Source: Caulobacter vibrioides OR37
GTDB taxonomy: Bacteria; Pseudomonadota; Alphaproteobacteria; Caulobacterales; Caulobacteraceae
Direction: 5' to 3'
Assembly: GCF_000372645.1 (NCBI RefSeq)
Contig: NZ_APMP01000005.1
Location: 62,001 to 126,000, forward strand
DNA length: 64,000 nt
Made by a program: the position numbers and the translations under genes. Position 1 is the first letter of the stretch, and each line of letters opens with the position of its first letter. The notes under the pieces were generated by a model that saw only the letters and a program-made list of their open reading frames with translations, had not been told where the DNA came from and did not search any database. This document shows, one piece after another, positions 1 through 58,841 of this stretch.

Positions 1-457
1 TGGCGGCGCCAAGAAGCGTCCGTACTACTCGATCGTCGTCGCCGACAGCCACTCGCCGCGCGACGGCCGCTTCATCGAGAAGGTCGGCACCTACAACCCG
101 CTGCTCAAGAAGGACGACGCCAACCGCGTCACCCTGAAGGTCGAATCGATCCAGGAGTGGCTCAAGAAGGGCGCCCAGCCGACCGACCGCGTCGCCCGCT
201 TCCTGGCCGCCCAGGGCCTGACCGCCTGGACCCACGGCAACAACCCGGAAAAGGGCAAGCCGGGCAAGAAGGCGCAAGAGCGTCTGGCCGAACGCGCCCA
301 GCGTGAAGAAGAGCGCCGTCAGGCCGAGGAAGACGCCAAGGCCGCCGCCGAGGCTGAAAAGGCCGCCGCCGCCGAAGCCGCCGCCGCGGCTGCCGCGGCT
401 CCGGCCGAGGAAGCTCCGGCCGCCGAGGCTCCGGCCGAAGAAGCCGCCGAAGGCTAA
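1..457 (+). CDS. rpsP: 30S ribosomal protein S16, 5' end outside window
   Basis: Structural protein of the 30S subunit, needed for assembly of the body of the subunit. The frame is open from base 2 and begins [20 protein letters not shown], the conserved S16 core; about nine N-terminal residues lie before the window. The S16 fold ends near the segment [10 protein letters not shown]; after it comes a ~65-residue low-complexity tail rich in Ala, Glu and Pro, a lineage-typical extension rather than a frame error because it stays in frame to a single TAA. It is followed 57 bp later by rimM, the usual partner in ribosome biogenesis. Confidence 0.97.
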
Positions 458-514
458 TCGGAGTATCCGCGCCGCCGGTCCTTCGCGGATCGGCGGCGCG
501 ACTCTGTCCGGACC

Positions 515-1078
515 ATGGCCTCGCCTCCCCAAGACCCTCTGATCCTGGTCGGCCGCGTGGCCGGCGGTTTCGGCGTGCGCGGCGAGGTGCGGATCTCGAC
601 CTATACCGAGGCGCCAATGAACCTGGCCGCCTTCAAGACGCTGAAGCGCCAGGACGGCTCGCCCGCCCTAACCATCGCCTCGGCCCGGCCGACCAAGGAC
701 GGCGTCATCTGCCGCTGTCCCGGCATCGACAGCAAGGAAGCCGCCGACGCCCTGCGCGGCCTTCGCCTCTACGTCCCCCGCTCGGCCCTGCCCGAGCCCG
801 ACGAGGACGAATTCTATCTGACCGACCTGGTGGGGCTTTCCGTTCGCCACATCGCCACGAACGTCCTGCTGGGCCGCGTGAAGAGCGTCCAGAATTTCGG
901 CGCCGGCGACATTCTCGAGATCACCCCGGACCTGGGCGGCCCAACCTGGTATCTGCCGTTCACGCGGGCGGCTGTTCCCGAGGTCAAGATCGGCGAAGGT
1001 CTGATCCTGGCCGACCCGCCCGCCCTGGTGGGAGAGGCCGAGGGACCGGCCGAGGAAGAGCTGGGCGACCGCGACTAA
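515..1078 (+). CDS. rimM: Ribosome maturation factor RimM
   Basis: Assembly factor that binds S19 and helps mature the 3' (head) domain of 16S rRNA. The protein has 187 residues. The N-terminal RimM barrel starts at about residue 8 with LVGRVAGGFGVRGEVRI, the family signature; a PRC-barrel follows from about residue 95 (FYLTDLVGLSV, then GAGDILEI). The Glu/Asp-rich C-terminus is typical. The ATG at 515 is the first start in frame and has only a weak GGA upstream. It sits directly after rpsP as expected, but the usual next gene, trmD, is missing from this position. Confidence 0.96.
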   Translation: MASPPQDPLILVGRVAGGFGVRGEVRISTYTEAPMNLAAFKTLKRQDGSPALTIASARPTKDGVICRCPGIDSKEAADALRGLRLYVPRSALPEPDEDEFYLTDLVGLSVRHIATNVLLGRVKSVQNFGAGDILEITPDLGGPTWYLPFTRAAVPEVKIGEGLILADPPALVGEAEGPAEEELGDRD

Positions 1079-1102
1079 TTCTCCGCGAGGGAGCTACCGG
1101 CG

Positions 1103-1666
1103 ATGTCGGACGGAAAGTGGCGCGTCATCGCTTCGCGCATCGTTCACCAGGATCGCTGGATCCACCTTCGCGCCGACGACTGCGTCACCGACGAAGGCGC
1201 GGTGATCGCACCCTACTATGTTCTGGAATATCCCGACTGGGTCGAGCTGGTGGCCCTGGACGCCAGCAATAACGTCCTGCTGGTCAGGCAGTATCGCCAC
1301 GCGCTGGGCGACATCTCGACCGAGCTTCCGGCCGGCGGCATGGACCCGGGCGAGACCGATCCGGTGGAGGCCGCCCGCCGCGAACTGCTGGAAGAGGCCG
1401 GCTGCGCCGGAACCCTGACCCTGCTGGGCGAGACCCGCCCCAACGCCGGCACTCACACCAACCGCATCCACATCATCCTGGCCCGCGACGTGGTCAAGGT
1501 CGCCGAGCCCAAGGACGATCCGCGCGAGCGCATCGAGACCGTCTGGGTCCCGGCCGCCGAGGCCCTGCGCGTGGCCCTGGCCGGCGAAATGACCGTCGGC
1601 ATGCAGGCCGCTTCGTTGCTGAGGGGCTTGGCGGCCGCGGGGGTGGTGAAGGTGGAGCTGGCTTAG
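1103..1666 (+). CDS. Nudix hydrolase, ADP-ribose pyrophosphatase-like
   Basis: Probable pyrophosphohydrolase of nucleotide sugars or ADP-ribose, cytosolic, Mg-dependent. The protein has 187 residues, the size of the ADP-ribose pyrophosphatase group, with a Nudix box at about residues 78-101 (GGMDPGE, then RRELLEEAG). The spacing between the first Glu and the RE pair is eight residues rather than the textbook seven, which is unusual but leaves every metal-binding Glu in place. A good ribosome-binding site (GAGGGAG) precedes ATG 1103. It has no winged-helix domain, so it is not an NrtR-type regulator. The substrate cannot be read from sequence. Confidence 0.88.
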   Translation: MSDGKWRVIASRIVHQDRWIHLRADDCVTDEGAVIAPYYVLEYPDWVELVALDASNNVLLVRQYRHALGDISTELPAGGMDPGETDPVEAARRELLEEAGCAGTLTLLGETRPNAGTHTNRIHIILARDVVKVAEPKDDPRERIETVWVPAAEALRVALAGEMTVGMQAASLLRGLAAAGVVKVELA

Positions 1667-1762
1667 TCGGCGCGGCGCCGAACCGCTCCGGATGAAGCCG
1701 GGGCCGGGTTTCCGGATAGCGGGAGTTCACGAAGGCTACGATGGGTGGAATTCGGACCTGGC

Positions 1763-2257
1763 CTAAGCTGGGTTAGGAAGGCGGTTGATCCAGATGTCAT
1801 TCTGCCAGTCTGCATATCCGAGCAATTCGCCCTCTGTTCTCTCGTGCTCGACTGACCACTCGCCTTGCAGGCGAAGCTCGATCATGGCGTCGAGACGCCA
1901 CGCTTCATTTGGCGCTGCATAAAGGATCACATGTAAAGGTCGCCGTGCATTTGATGAAATTTCGACATATTCGCGCCTGACGAACATTCCCATTTCAACA
2001 TGCCTGTCGAACATTCTGAGATATCTAAGAACCACGTCCGGGAAGTGACCGTGGCCGTCGGCGAACATCGCCAGTGGCTTTAAACCCCGAAGCATTAGGC
2101 CCAATTCGCGGTTTGTATGGATCGCATAGCCCAGCACCCGTTCACTAAGATGTTCTGGCCTTGGCATTAACGCGGCAACTCCGCCATTCCACTCCACCGT
2201 AGCCGAGCGGCCGTCCATCAGGAATGTCCAACTAGGGCCGAACCCGGTCTCCGACAT
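1763..2257 (-). CDS. Hypothetical protein, low-GC orphan
   Basis: I do not recognise a family. The frame encodes about 164 residues from ATG 2257 (MSETGFGPSWTFLMDG) and has no signal peptide or membrane segment; it looks like a soluble globular protein with many aromatics and a WQNDIWINRL-type C-terminus. The frame stays open upstream to ATG 2320, but that extension would be translated from a REP-like repeat (2275-2397), so I prefer 2257, where GGAGG lies almost against the start. Base composition is clearly lower in GC than all neighbours, with less biased third codon positions, suggesting acquisition by transfer. Confidence 0.6.
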   Translation of the reverse strand: MSETGFGPSWTFLMDGRSATVEWNGGVAALMPRPEHLSERVLGYAIHTNRELGLMLRGLKPLAMFADGHGHFPDVVLRYLRMFDRHVEMGMFVRREYVEISSNARRPLHVILYAAPNEAWRLDAMIELRLQGEWSVEHERTEGELLGYADWQNDIWINRLPNPA

Positions 2258-2274
2258 TCCTCCAGAAGCCCGAC

Positions 2275-2397
2275 CTTCCCGGCAAATGCCGGGATCCAGA
2301 TCGAACCCACGGACGCTCATGGTTCAGTCCTGAGCGAGGTCGCGTTCATTCCAGCCGATCCGGATGAATCTGGGCCCGGGCATTCGCCGGGGAAGTC
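2275..2397. repeat. REP-like intergenic inverted repeat, copy 1
   Basis: Two hairpin-forming arms face each other. The left arm reads CTTCCCGGCAAATGCCGGGA followed by TCCAGATCGAACCCA; the right arm reads GGATGAATCTGGGC followed by CCGGGCATTCGCCGGGGAAG. The same arrangement recurs at 17620-17742, and a single arm recurs at 19406-19429, so this is a dispersed family rather than chance symmetry. Confidence 0.75.
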
Positions 2398-2463
2398 GGT
2401 CTATCTGGAATTTCCAAAGCGCCGCCGGGACTTTAGATTCGCAGCGTCTTCGTCGTCGCGGCC

Positions 2464-3318
2464 CTACTTCCGCAGCCGCATCAGGCATTCCTGCGCGACC
2501 GAGGCCAGCAGCTTGCCGTTCTGGCTGAACATCTGGCCGCGCACCAGGCCGCGGCCGTGCGAAGCGGCGGGGCTGTCCTGGGCGAACAGGGTCCAATTGT
2601 TGAAGTCGAACGGCTGGTGGAACCACATGGCGTGGTCCAGGCTGGCCCCCTGCAGGCCCGGCGTCGACCAGATCAGGCCGTGCGGGCGCAGGGCGCTTTC
2701 CATGAAGGCCATGTCGGAGGCGTAGGCCAAGGCGGCCTGTTGCATCTTGATGTCGTCGCCAAGCGGGGCCTTGGCCCGCATCCAGACATTCTTGACGCCA
2801 GGCTTCTTGACCGGGGCGACCGGGTTCTGCGGATCTTCCCAGCGGATGTCGACCGGACGCGGCCGCGAGGCGATCGCCAGCATCTTCGGCGGGATCTGGT
2901 CGCCCAGGCCTTTCAGGAACTCGACCTCGGTGGGCAGGCCCTCTGGATCGGGCGCGGTCGGCATCTCCGACTGGTGCTCGAAGCCCTCCTCGGGCGTCTG
3001 GAACGAGGCGGCCAGGTTGAAGATCTGCTCGCCGTGCTGGATCGCGGCGACGCGGCGCGTGGTGAAGGTGCCGCCGTCGCGGGCGCGCTCCACCTCGTAG
3101 AGCACCGGTGCGGTGACGTCGCCGGGCCGGATGAAATAGGCGTGCAGCGAGTGGCAAACCCGCTCCGGCACGGTCCTGTAGGCCGCCAGCAGGGCCTGGG
3201 CGATCACCAGCCCGCCGAAGATGCGCGGGAAGCCGTCGTTCGGGCTGATCCCCCGGAACAGGTTCACCTCGATCGGCTCAAGGTCCAGAATGTCGGCGAG
3301 GTTCTCGGTCGTCTGCAT
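2464..3318 (-). CDS. tesB: Acyl-CoA thioesterase II (TesB family)
   Basis: Hydrolyses medium- and long-chain acyl-CoAs to fatty acid and CoA in the cytosol. The protein has 284 residues and a double-hotdog fold. N-terminal signature: LFRGISPNDGFPRIFGG; C-terminal signature: AMWFHQPFDFNNW and FAQDSPAASHGRGLVRG, ending VAQECLMRLRK. The frame is open upstream to 3363, but the start at 3318 (MQTTENLADILDLEPIEVN) matches where TesB proteins begin and avoids overlap with the divergent gene. It is transcribed divergently from the deacetylase-like gene at 3400. Confidence 0.93.
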   Translation of the reverse strand: MQTTENLADILDLEPIEVNLFRGISPNDGFPRIFGGLVIAQALLAAYRTVPERVCHSLHAYFIRPGDVTAPVLYEVERARDGGTFTTRRVAAIQHGEQIFNLAASFQTPEEGFEHQSEMPTAPDPEGLPTEVEFLKGLGDQIPPKMLAIASRPRPVDIRWEDPQNPVAPVKKPGVKNVWMRAKAPLGDDIKMQQAALAYASDMAFMESALRPHGLIWSTPGLQGASLDHAMWFHQPFDFNNWTLFAQDSPAASHGRGLVRGQMFSQNGKLLASVAQECLMRLRK

Positions 3319-5780: not shown

Positions 5781-6794
5781 GTGATCAAGCCCGAAGATCT
5801 TCTCTGTCCCCGACCGGGCGGCCTCTACTGCCCGCCGGGCGACTTCTATATCGACCCGGTCCGTCCCGTGGACCGGGCGGTGATCACCCACGGCCATTCG
5901 GACCACGCCCGCGCCGGCCACGGCGTCGCCGTCGCCACGCCGCAAACGCTGGCGATCATGGCGGTCCGCTATGGCGAGGATTTCGCCGGCCGCCGTCAGC
6001 CCGTTCCCTATGGCGAAACCTTCGTTCGCGACGGTGTCGAGGTGACTTTGGTTCCGGCGGGTCATGTGCTGGGCTCGGCCCAGGCGGTCGTGCGCTGGAA
6101 GGGCCTGACCATGGTGGTGTCCGGCGATTACAAGCGCCGACGCGACCCGACCTGCGCGTTGTTCGAGCCCGTCCCTTGCGACGTCTTCATCACCGAAGCG
6201 ACGTTCGGCCTGCCCGTCTTCCGCCACCCCGACGACGCCGGCGAGATCCGCCGCCTGCTGGCCTCTGTCGAACAGTTCCCGGAGCGCTGCCATCTGGTCG
6301 GGGCCTACGCCTTGGGCAAGGCTCAGCGCGTGATCCGGCTGCTGCGCGAGGCGGGCTGGGACAGGCCGATCTTCGTCCACGGCGCGCTGGAGCGGCTGAA
6401 CGCCCTTTACGAAGCGCACGGCGTGGCGCTGGGGCCGCTGGCGCCCGCCACCGCCTCGGGTCCCAAGGACGCCTTCGCCGGCCAGATCATCATCGCGCCG
6501 CCGTCGGCCATGGCCGACCGCTGGTCGCGGCGCTTTCCCGATCCGGTCGACTGCTTCGCCTCGGGCTGGATGCGGGTGCGGGCCCGCGCCCGACAACGGG
6601 GCGTGGAGCTGCCGCTGATCCTGTCGGACCACGCCGACTGGGACGAGCTGACGGGGACCCTGGCCGAGCTGCGCCCTGGCGAGGTGTGGATCACCCATGG
6701 GCGGGAGGAGGCCCTTGAGCGTTGGTGCGCGCTGGAAGGGCTGCCGGCCCGGGCGCTGCGCCTGGTCGGCTATGATGAGGAAGAGGGGGAATAG
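5781..6794 (+). CDS. DNA ligase-associated exonuclease, metallo-beta-lactamase fold
   Basis: Predicted nuclease of the ligase-associated DNA repair set (exonuclease, ATP-dependent ligase, Lhr-type helicase, metallophosphoesterase). 337 residues from GTG 5781. The metal-binding HxHxDH motif is in AVITHGHSDHARAGHG; the beta-CASP region and a late ILSDHADWDEL carry the other ligands, and WITHGREE is near the end. The frame is also open from ATG 5739 (+14 residues), but that start sits inside the ATG of the divergent gene; homologues begin close to KPEDLL, favouring 5781. The cognate ligase is 38 kb away at 44672-46285. Confidence 0.88.
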   Translation: MIKPEDLLCPRPGGLYCPPGDFYIDPVRPVDRAVITHGHSDHARAGHGVAVATPQTLAIMAVRYGEDFAGRRQPVPYGETFVRDGVEVTLVPAGHVLGSAQAVVRWKGLTMVVSGDYKRRRDPTCALFEPVPCDVFITEATFGLPVFRHPDDAGEIRRLLASVEQFPERCHLVGAYALGKAQRVIRLLREAGWDRPIFVHGALERLNALYEAHGVALGPLAPATASGPKDAFAGQIIIAPPSAMADRWSRRFPDPVDCFASGWMRVRARARQRGVELPLILSDHADWDELTGTLAELRPGEVWITHGREEALERWCALEGLPARALRLVGYDEEEGE

Positions 6795-29583: not shown

Positions 29584-29659
29584 GGGGCCGTAGCTCAGAT
29601 GGTAGAGCGCCTCGTTCGCAATGAGGAGGTCAGGGGTTCGATTCCCCTCGGCTCCACCA
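29584..29659 (+). tRNA. tRNA-Ala (anticodon CGC)
   Basis: 76-nt cloverleaf. Acceptor arm GGGGCCG pairs with CGGCTCC and CCA is encoded; D arm GCTC...GAGC; anticodon loop TTCGCAA gives CGC, reading GCG codons, which are abundant here; T arm with GGTTCGATTCC. It stands alone between yggT and the porin gene. I see no integrase or att-like duplication around it. Confidence 0.97.
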
Positions 29660-41501: not shown

Positions 41502-41641
41502 GAAAGCCTCGATTGGCGCCCCCGCGCCGTTCGGTCAACGGCGGCGACGCGGCCATGGTTCCGCTTGCCCCGTCTGGGGGAAACAGTCGGTTACATCAAT
41601 TGGCTCGAATTCGTCATGAACGCCCACTAGAGCGTGGCGCC

Positions 41642-57100: not shown

Positions 57101-57129
57101 AGCGCGTCAAATTCAGCTTGAGCGTCTAG
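57097..57129. repeat. CIR-derived fragment between convergent genes
   Basis: CTAGAGCGCGTCAAATTC...CTTGAGCGTCTAG keeps only the outer ends of a CIR module. It supplies the TAG of the upstream gene and the CTA (TAG on the minus strand) of the DUF2794 gene. Confidence 0.5.
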
Positions 57130-57461
57130 TCGACGACCGAGAACTTGCCCTTCTCGAACACCCGCAGCACCTGAGTCAGCTCGTGGCCGCGCTTTAGGAT
57201 CTGGCCGCCCTGGCCGATCACCGCCCAGGCGCCCTGCTTTCGCGCCAAGGCCGGACGCTTCTCGACACGATAGAGCGGCGCCTCCGCCGCGTGCCGGAAG
57301 ATGGAAAACACCGCGCTATCCGAAAGTCCGGCGATGCCGTAGTCGCGCCATTCCCCGGCCGCGACCATTCGGCCGTAGAGCCGCATCAGCTGGTCCAGCT
57401 CGCGACGCTCGAAAAAGACGACGCCCCCGACCGGAGGCGTGGGCTGGGTGTCCAGGGCCAT
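57126..57461 (-). CDS. DUF2794 family protein
   Basis: 111 residues, alphaproteobacterial family of unknown function. Conserved core FERRELDQLMRLYGRMVAAG, EWRDYGI, then AVFSIFRHAAEAPLYRVEKRP and LRVFEKGKFSVVD. Soluble, single domain. The start at 57461 faces the small RNA locus. Confidence 0.92.
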   Translation of the reverse strand: MALDTQPTPPVGGVVFFERRELDQLMRLYGRMVAAGEWRDYGIAGLSDSAVFSIFRHAAEAPLYRVEKRPALARKQGAWAVIGQGGQILKRGHELTQVLRVFEKGKFSVVD

Positions 57462-57641
57462 GCGTCGAATCTAGTCCCAAATCGGACGATTGGAACAGCG
57501 CGCACCGAGATTGGGGCCAGGATGCGTCGATCCGTGTCCCCGCGGTCACGGGGATCAGAAATGACACGCGCCGGCAATGGTCGCCCCGAAACGACCTTAT
57601 TTCGGTCCTTCGCCCGCCTGTTTAGGGGTCGATAAAACCAA

Positions 57642-57784
57642 TGTCGGCTGATCGGACACCCTGTGGTCCAGGATCCTGAACAGCCCCCCCAGCCCCCCAG
57701 ATCGCGGGCCGGTCAGCCGACAAACTCCATATCCCCTCCCCTAAGAGGCCCGCGCGGATTTCCCCCCACCGCGCGGGCTTTTTC
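57642..57784 (+). ncRNA. Candidate small RNA 1 with C-rich loop (tandem unit 1)
   Basis: A 14-nt arm TGTCGGCTGATCGG (57642-57655) pairs almost perfectly with CCGGTCAGCCGACA (57709-57722). The enclosed loop has the C-rich stretch CAGCCCCCCCAGCCCCCC (57681-57698). A terminator follows: GCCCGCGCGG / CCGCGCGGGC (57748-57757, 57769-57778) with loop ATTTCCCCCCA and five T. Upstream, GATAAAAC (57631-57638) matches the Caulobacter -10 consensus GCTANAWC at 7 of 8. No coding frame fits. Could correspond to a known Caulobacter sRNA named for a nearby locus (I recall a CC3664 family in Rfam; not checked). Confidence 0.65.
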
Positions 57785-57896
57785 GTTGGCGCGAAGAATG
57801 GGAAGCAACGGCCAAGCCGCCGTATCTTGGCCATGACCCGCCCCGAAACGACCTCGGTTTGGTCGATCCCTCGCCCGGTTGCGGGTCGATAACAAC

Positions 57897-58018
57897 AGTG
57901 TCGACGAAGACGGACCGGGCTCCTGTCCAGCCCCCCCAGCCCGCCCGGTCACGGACGTCATCGCCGACATGCGAAAGGAACCCGCACGGCCTCCCCCCTC
58001 CCGCCGTGCGGGTTTTTG
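57897..58018 (+). ncRNA. Candidate small RNA 2 with C-rich loop (tandem unit 2)
   Basis: Second copy, 257 bp after unit 1. Nested pairings TGTCG/CGACA (57899-57903, 57964-57968), GACG/CGTC (57909-57912, 57956-57959) and GACCGGG/CCCGGTC (57913-57919, 57944-57950) present a loop with CCAGCCCCCCCAGCCCG (57928-57944). Terminator CCCGCACGGC / GCCGTGCGGG (57981-57990, 58003-58012) with loop CTCCCCCCTCCC and five T. Stem sequences differ from unit 1 while pairing and the C-rich loop are kept, which argues for selection on structure. The C-rich loops could pair with G-rich ribosome sites (inference). Confidence 0.65.
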
Positions 58019-58070
58019 CATGTCTGGAGCATCGCGCGGCTCGCTCTGACGAGGCGCTGGCCCGGAAAGC

Positions 58071-58841
58071 CTAATGTTCGACGGGCGGCGCCAGGACGCC
58101 CAGGATCCGGCCGCCCTTAGCGCCCTGCAACAGGATGACGGTCGAGAGGTCGGCGTCCGAAGCCGCCGGCAGCCGATAGAGCTTGGGCTTGCCCGCCCAG
58201 GGCCCCAGCCTGACCAGTTCACGCACCACGTTGCGGTGGACCAGGGTCTGACCCTTATTGTCGCCGCGCTTGACGGCGATGTCCTGCTCGCGCGGATCGT
58301 ATCGCACCAGCCAGACCTCGGCCCCGCCGCGCGGAACCGCGCCCGCGCCCACCGCGACGCGGTTGACGCCCAGCCGCTGCATGTCCGGCGCCTTGAGCGG
58401 CGTCTTGGCGGTGGACTTGATCAGATCCTCGACGGCCTCGGCCTTGGTCCCCGAAGCCTGGACGCGGCCGCCTACCACCATCTGAGGCGTCGGCACGTCG
58501 CGCAGGGCGAACTTCTTGGCGTAGGCGCGTTGGCGTTCGGCGAAGATCGGCTTGGCGAAGGTGTCCTTCCAGCCGAGATAGTCCCAGTAGTCCACCGAAT
58601 AGGTCAGGGCCAGCACGCCGTCGCGCTGGGCCAAATCCGCCGCCAACTGATTGGCCTTGCCGCAGGACGAGCAGCCCTGGGCCGTGAACAGCTCGACCAC
58701 CACCGGCGCCCTGGCGTGGGCCGGAACGACCTTCGCGGCCGCGCCCTTGGACGCCATTCCCTTCGCGGGTTGGGCCCAGGCGGCGGGAACCGTGACGCCG
58801 GACAGGGCCAGGCAAAGCAGGGAGAGGACGGCCTTACGCAT
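58071..58841 (-). CDS. DUF1223 family secreted thioredoxin-like protein
   Basis: 256 residues. Signal peptide ending AAWA-QPA (about residue 23). Thioredoxin-like fold with VVELFTAQGCSSCGKANQLA (CxxC), SVDYWDYLGWKDTFAKP, and the cis-Pro region TPQMVVGGRVQASG. Alphaproteobacterial periplasmic family, probable disulfide or redox role, not demonstrated. Confidence 0.92.
   Translation of the reverse strand: MRKAVLSLLCLALSGVTVPAAWAQPAKGMASKGAAAKVVPAHARAPVVVELFTAQGCSSCGKANQLAADLAQRDGVLALTYSVDYWDYLGWKDTFAKPIFAERQRAYAKKFALRDVPTPQMVVGGRVQASGTKAEAVEDLIKSTAKTPLKAPDMQRLGVNRVAVGAGAVPRGGAEVWLVRYDPREQDIAVKRGDNKGQTLVHRNVVRELVRLGPWAGKPKLYRLPAASDADLSTVILLQGAKGGRILGVLAPPVEH

Follow-up and report, generated by a model that had tools for sequence, protein, structure and literature searches.

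The gap between the DUF2794 and DUF1223 genes of Caulobacter vibrioides OR37 contains two small RNA genes in tandem, a catalogued sRNA (RF01530, CC3664) and an unrecorded sister, which are best explained as members of one old alphaproteobacterial family whose genes usually lie beside DUF2794. The two genes, the conservation of their structure and loop, their shared promoter motif, their gene context, and their kinship with RF01530 were established by computation on a window of 64,000 nucleotides (the whole stretch of DNA analyzed) and on related genomes.

Both units lie head to tail on the plus strand (window positions 57588 to 58018), 257 nt apart. The gap is bounded on one side by the DUF2794 gene (57126 to 57461, minus strand; Pfam PF10984, 4.5e-41), a conserved neighbor that is divergent from the RNAs, and on the opposite flank by the DUF1223 gene (58071 to 58841, minus strand; Pfam PF06764, 3.8e-58). 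From 5' to 3', each unit consists of an upstream block (57588 to 57638 and 57845 to 57896), a long hairpin, a short linker, and a terminator. The long hairpin of unit 1 (57643 to 57784) spans 57643 to 57721, with arms at 57643 to 57655 and 57709 to 57721, and carries the C-rich loop motif CAGCCCCCCCAGCCC at its tip (57681 to 57695); a pyrimidine linker that is unpaired in the fold, TATCCCCTCCCC with its CCUCC core (57730 to 57741), is followed by an intrinsic terminator with a six-C loop (57743 to 57783, inverted repeat I2). In unit 2 (57900 to 58018), the long hairpin (57900 to 57968) again shows CAGCCCCCCCAGCCC at its tip (57928 to 57942), and the intrinsic terminator (57976 to 58017, inverted repeat I3) has the loop CTCCCCCCTCCC (57991 to 58002). 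The two units thus share one loop string, as a sequence-only reading of this DNA had said, and the head-to-tail spacing of about 257 bp given there corresponds to two direct repeats: the promoter parts recur at 257 nt (57582 to 57646 and 57839 to 57903, 77%) and the loop parts at 247 nt (57665 to 57722 and 57912 to 57969, 72%).

The fold of unit 1 reaches -69.6 kcal/mol (z, -6.99) and that of unit 2 -57.4 kcal/mol (z, -4.68), with none of 200 shuffled sequences as good in either case. Together with the repeats and the covariation described below, this bears out the earlier claim of two tandem, structure-conserved RNA units. The terminator hairpins have loops of 11 and 12 nt, each with six consecutive C, and end in five T, as that reading had described; their stems, given there as 10 bp, comprise 15 pairs in the fold when pairs with the T run are included. 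A simple terminator scan covering loops of 3 to 8 nt picked up part of the unit 2 terminator and one other site (2 versus 0.8 in shuffles), and did not pick up the terminator of unit 1. The region was absent from the plasmid collection.

Membership in RF01530 is defined by a covariance-model score of at least 60 bits. Unit 1 scored 122.3 bits (model positions 1 to 136, window 57643 to 57779) and shares hairpin, loop, and terminator with CC3664, in keeping with the earlier suspicion that one unit was a Caulobacter sRNA already known under the name of a nearby locus. Unit 2 scored 33.3 bits, which is outside the family by the Rfam rule; by structure, loop, and position it is a diverged paralog of unit 1. 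We trained a hairpin model (R1) on 65 sequences, the two window units included, and it recovered both from the 4.43-Mb genome at our family threshold (a C-rich-loop hairpin with whole-genome E of at most 0.001): unit 1 with an E value of 3.9e-15 and unit 2 with 47.4 bits and an E value of 2.3e-6. Since the third-best match has an E value of only 0.32, the genome has two copies and none further at that level. Unit 1 is therefore already known as a sequence family, while unit 2 has no Rfam match at the cut-off, in line with the suggestion in that reading that the pairing of two copies might be undescribed, and is a newly recognized member. Among 14 named control genomes, RF01530 matched only in C. 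vibrioides. Matches to RF03819, RF00512, RF00616, and RF02342 fell far under their cut-offs and were taken as chance; the sole other match at gathering level in the window is a tRNA gene (29584 to 29656). We found no open-licence paper on the function of CC3664/unit 1 or on the tandem pair.

Each unit is preceded by a promoter-like element on the plus strand (GAAACGACCTTATTTCGGTC, 57588 to 57607, and GAAACGACCTCGGTTTGGTC, 57845 to 57864). The 20-nt motif GAAAYGACCTTNNTTYGGYC, which is the consensus, with variation, of 72 unit 1 upstream regions and has related blocks ahead of other copies, occurs at two sites in the 4.43-Mb genome when up to two mismatches are allowed, one ahead of each unit, and its reversed control occurs at none. 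Both sites end 35 nt ahead of the presumed +1, for which the starts of the Rfam model were taken. Putative -10-like elements follow on the same strand at 57630 to 57638 (CGATAAAAC) and 57887 to 57896 (CGATAACAAC), and blocks similar to CGATAAAAC are present in many upstream regions; a sigma-70 scan gave no match (0.0 expected). The shared motif suggests a private regulator common to both units, and the 20-nt block is likely the site for such a dedicated regulator.

Within the genus, RF01530 matched in 73 of 75 genomes at an E value of 0.1, and in 72 genomes a copy lies in the gap adjoining DUF2794 or DUF1223; among the remaining three, G033 has its copy elsewhere and G036 and G061 have none. 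Further RF01530 copies in the same gap number 39, in 38 genomes, of which 4 score over the cut-off. Counting by motif in the 72 syntenic gaps gave two copies in 44 and one in 27, with the single copy of one gap missed; the pair is therefore not strain-specific. In a tree of the DUF2794 protein (71 rows), one clade (support, 99/96) comprises 43 rows, of which 42 show two copies; the lone exception, L028, ends at a contig edge. Two-copy gaps outside this clade (G051 and G004, the latter with three RF01530 copies in the gap) sit on long branches of a tree that has few columns. The tandem arrangement, which the sequence-only reading called unusual, is hence what is normally found in one Caulobacter clade, and tandem copies also occur at L071 and, in another order, at L316 (see below). 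L071 (positions 1157 to 1817; G050, Caulobacter) carries three tandem copies, with neither DUF2794 nor DUF1223 found there, and at L072 to L081 we observed dispersed hairpins, mostly of about 75 to 80 nt, with the same loop and often without an evident terminator.

That the stem arms differ between the units and yet stay paired had also been claimed, and alignments support it. For unit 1 (71 sequences; L028 was omitted as incomplete), 13 of 21 pairs show changes on both sides, 99.0% of the cells are paired versus 91.7% after shuffling, and the number of cells changed on both sides (94, versus 18.2 in shuffles) was reached by none of 500 shuffles; pairing was lost when the partner was slid. For unit 2, in 13 close relatives, two-sided changes affect 7 of the 33 pairs of both hairpins and 97.2% of the cells are paired versus 93.1%; on four of five measures the real alignment scored above all 500 shuffles, and the fifth, further pair types, showed no excess (431 of 500). 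Arms that drift without keeping their pairing were found in neither unit. Covariation was also seen for 9 of 15 pairs in a mixed set of 65 sequences (1 of 500 shuffles as high) and for 12 of 15 pairs in a set of 33, in which 31 loci from the order were joined to the window's own two units; the alignment of that set was fitted to the model and is hence biased in its favor.

The loop itself hardly changes. CTGAACAGCCCCC is identical in all 71 aligned unit 1 sequences, and the mean unpaired probability of the central C run exceeds 0.7 in 71 of 72 unit 1 sequences and 37 of 39 further copies. Unit 2 retains a loop of the form CAG-C6/7-AGCCC in all 13 close relatives, 10 of which have the exact string of the window, together with its hairpin, its terminator stem, and a recognizable promoter block. 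In some clades the loop of the second copy is altered, to TTGCCCCCCAGCC in one and to CAGCCCCTCCAGCC in another. The 3' parts contain a CCUCC core in 62 of 72 unit 1 sequences, where shuffles give 20.3, and in 34 of the 39 further copies, where they give 9.7; this enrichment fits anti-Shine-Dalgarno use. The likeness to CCUCC-loop sRNAs drawn by the sequence-only reading therefore holds for most 3' parts, but not for the central loop, which is CAGCCCCCCCAGCCC; CCTCCTCCC occurs in neither unit. As for coding potential, a conserved start ATG was not found among these sequences (17 of 72 and 9 of 39, two positions counted), so a short frame from the ATG at 57641 was rejected, and a long antisense frame (57713 to 58222) was taken as spurious.

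Beyond the genus, R1 matched in 195 of 298 Caulobacterales genomes and, in a sample of the class, in 4 of 289 genomes, all four within the order, so that the model is specific. R1 is evidently too narrow, since it drew a blank outside the order and relatives nevertheless turned up there by way of the locus and of RF02355. The exact 24-mer around the loop was found in at least 120 genome stretches; the named records among the matches listed belong to Caulobacter, Phenylobacterium, Brevundimonas, Peiella, and Caulobacteraceae/Caulobacterales, and the others are metagenome-assembled genomes labeled only by class, by phylum, or as bacterium. In 93 of these 120 matches listed, DUF2794 is divergent and lies 146 to 293 nt from the loop core, and in one it lies 1.4 kb off; it was not found in the other 26, 7 of which have less than 0.7 kb of sequence on that side, nor at some further loci of the order. 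DUF2794 is thus a frequent fixed neighbor of the family. Twenty loci from the order had no Rfam match at gathering level; at loci L248 to L268, the loop pattern is present in all 21 and mostly unpaired in 20. The Rfam entry RF01530 accordingly represents a small part of a family that spans the order, and probably the class, and whose loop is nearly invariant.

In the class sample, 63 of 115 genomes carry DUF2794, 61 of them outside the order, with 62 matches there, of which 28 were inspected as loci (L307 to L334). CCCCCAGCCC, or a longer form of it, lies within 0.7 kb upstream of DUF2794 in six of the 28 (L309, L310, L311, L312, L319, and L320), L311 and L312 being of one genus. The L319 contig may stem from contamination, since its hairpin nearly matches the one at L297, a member of the order, and DUF2794 occurs twice in its genome. 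Near variants of the loop occur in strong hairpins at L316 and L321; a strong hairpin with GCCCCCACCC at L315 was not counted, and at the rest of the 28 loci no C-rich hairpin was recognized confidently within 0.7 kb upstream of DUF2794. At L316, which belongs to a different order of Alphaproteobacteria, two hairpins with the loop GTAGCCCCCAAGCCC stand in tandem beside DUF2794 (positions 1036 to 1328), which is an independent tandem pair. A second model, R2, whose training drew on the same genera, gave in 40 DUF2794-bearing genomes three best matches with E values of 1.4e-8, 3.6e-4, and 0.0016 at 0.2, 0.3, and 0.9 kb from DUF2794; its weaker matches lie mostly away from DUF2794.

A link to a second Rfam family emerged from the same locus. 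The L311 hairpin matched RF02355 (BjrC174, of Bradyrhizobiaceae) weakly, with 30.8 bits against a cut-off of 45. In 385 genomes searched with RF02355 at an E value of 0.01, six matched, one of them (G714, locus L343) over the cut-off, and a weak match was seen in the C. vibrioides control. L343 (positions 1 to 3194) has the order DUF2794, RNA, DUF1223, acn, as in the window, and its RNA is a long hairpin with the loop CTCAGCCCCCAGCCCCCC, 0.35 kb from DUF2794, followed by a terminator-like hairpin and a T run; the same locus and the same kind of loop are thus found together in the one genome that scores over the cut-off. DUF2794 lies beside the RNA in five of the six RF02355 loci, including four of the five weaker matches (two being L311 and L312 again), and was not found beside it at L344. 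BjrC174 resembles the window RNA in locus, architecture, and kind of loop and differs from it in stem sequence and length. As the window scores only 16.1 bits against RF02355, and so falls outside that family by its cut-off of 45, it is from locus, architecture, and loop that kinship is argued. Because the DUF2794/DUF1223/acn arrangement and the kind of loop are the same, the entries RF01530 and RF02355 probably describe a single family, with homology deduced from these three features. The position of BjrC174 between DUF2794 and DUF1223/acn would suggest merging the two Rfam families, a link on which we found nothing in open-licence papers. BjrC174 is described in PMC4842269 as an abundant sRNA whose transcription start site had the highest promoter activity among the tested sites without a mapped promoter.

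Several known RNAs share individual features with the two units. The 6C RNA of Actinobacteria has two hairpins whose loops contain runs of six or more C; its model (RF01066) scores 24.2 here, against a cut-off of 47. The alpha-r14/NfeR1 cuckoo RNAs of Rhizobiales are, like the units, hairpins with a C-rich loop, described as having diverged stems and an ultraconserved loop that is taken as anti-Shine-Dalgarno (PMC3927594, PMC10746234), and the loop of NfeR1 from Sinorhizobium meliloti is reported to pair with G-rich mRNA regions (PMC10746234). Their loop motif CCUCCUCCC, however, is in neither unit (the sole match in the window is at 6703 to 6711, minus strand), and the scores are low: 26.5 and 25 for RF02344 (cut-off, 58.8) and 27.5 for RF02342 (ar7; cut-off, 60). 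In Caulobacter crescentus, the C-rich 5' loop of GsrN pairs with a G tract of the katG leader according to PMC5869019, and the CCCC loop of CcnA (CCNA_R0094) is described as contacting GGGG in mRNA leaders (PMC8959179). GsrN is ccna_R0081 and has a sigma-T promoter, whereas GGAAC-N15-17-CGTT is near neither unit (its sole window match is at 41537 to 41562, minus strand); CcnA is transcribed from the replication origin, a different locus, by the accounts in PMC8959179 and PMC4287350. SisA-D, CrfA, and CcnA were rejected as identities, being placed at other loci in the literature. The C. crescentus copy may be among CCNA_R0090 to CCNA_R0092. For CCNA_R0092, a 23-fold cell-cycle change (PMC3829707) and an internal transcription start site (PMC8224329) are reported, and we regard it as a lead only; CCNA_R0090 to CCNA_R0092 are absent from a table of Hfq-enriched sRNAs in PMC11005374, which counts against the antisense reading given below.

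What these RNAs do can be approached from the loop. On balance, we lean toward a trans-acting antisense RNA whose C-rich loop acts on G-rich translation-initiation regions by short, many-target pairing. Promoter, hairpin, and terminator would have been duplicated together to give the two small RNA genes; in both, a long covarying hairpin would display a nearly invariant single-stranded loop (core, GCCCCCCAGCCCC), in Caulobacter usually followed by a pyrimidine tract or a terminator loop with CCUCC. Short stretches of the C-rich loop, and possibly of the CCUCC tract, would pair with G-rich leaders or ribosome-binding sites in numerous mRNAs and alter how these are translated; having a second copy would add dose or, in clades with a changed loop, another target set. 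Transcription at this locus, equal regulation of the copies, pairing with mRNA, and the sign of regulation are what we infer. In the genome, GGGGGGCTGTT has 3 sites, one of them the RNA itself, versus 4 for its control, and GGGGGGCTG has 46, including three within the RNA genes, versus 26 for its reversed control, a weak excess that could stem from coding bias. Inspection of 32 loci with such sites (covering 30 of the 46 GGGGGGCTG sites) revealed no convincing target set; a MoaD-like leader and an ABC-transporter leader were among the candidates and are not claimed as targets. The 12-nt loop complement GGGGCTGGGGGG is present in 54 of 60 genomes of the order and exactly once in 37. In 29 of these 37 the single site is the RNA gene itself (16 R1 places and 13 inspected hairpins), in G079 it is chance, and 7 are unclassified; of 20 such places inspected, mostly in genomes without an R1 match, 16 are hairpins of the same kind and 4 are chance (L291, L296, L300, and L304). 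With 37 of 60 genomes lacking a second perfect complement, we see no sign of a conserved long target. Such a target would be expected from an invariant 13-nt core, and the failure to see one counts against pairing as such; the same observation led us to rank short, many-target pairing first and a protein ligand second.

The second-ranked reading, possible but in our estimation rather improbable, is that of a protein-binding or decoy RNA, in which a conserved RNA-binding protein (Rho, a protein with a KH or S1 domain, or the DUF2794 protein) would recognize the C-rich loop, much as CsrB-type RNAs titrate CsrA. It would account for a loop that is kept across the order as the stems change freely, agrees with the lack of an evident long complement, and has in its favor that DUF2794 adjoins the RNA in the genus, in 93 of the 120 24-mer matches listed, at many loci of the order, and in some other orders. 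However, linkage by itself is no proof of binding, and the neighbor was not found in 26 of those matches (7 with less than 0.7 kb on that side), at some loci of the order, or at L344. The predicted structure of the DUF2794 protein, an alpha/beta fold with a mean pLDDT of 87.4, has no clear match among solved structures either: the best Foldseek E value was 0.25 and the best Z score 7.3, frataxin-like hits had Z scores of about 5 to 6, below the tool's own trust level, and a profile search found nothing significant. A full-text search of open-licence papers turned up the name DUF2794 in a single paper. Of a similar, marginally lower plausibility is the broader idea that RF01530 and RF02355 are the ends of one Alphaproteobacteria-wide, DUF2794-linked family, in which the core GCCCCCCAGCCCC would be kept for docking one conserved partner, be it a protein or the translation machinery, and not changing mRNAs, and the tandem Caulobacter copies would be an expansion of dose or specificity.

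That unit 2 is a functionless, decaying duplicate seems improbable to us: most second copies do score lower against RF01530, and loops such as TTGCCCCCCAGCC have changed in some clades, but its hairpin, loop, terminator stem, and promoter block are kept in the 13 close relatives, and two copies persist in 42 of the 43 clade genomes. Least probable is that the neighborhood is a regulatory region shared with DUF2794 and that the RNA acts mainly in cis on that gene, a reading to which the divergent position at 146 to 293 nt would lend itself, because the RNA points away from the DUF2794 gene without overlapping it, unit 2 shows promoter motif and hairpin copied together as one module at a distance from DUF2794, and L071 to L081, where DUF2794 was not found, carry dispersed copies.

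A catalogued sRNA of Caulobacter thus gains an unrecorded tandem sister. The main gain lies in the wide family to which both belong and in its probable link to BjrC174; Caulobacter and Bradyrhizobium both serve as laboratory organisms. Loop conservation of such a degree usually means a core role.
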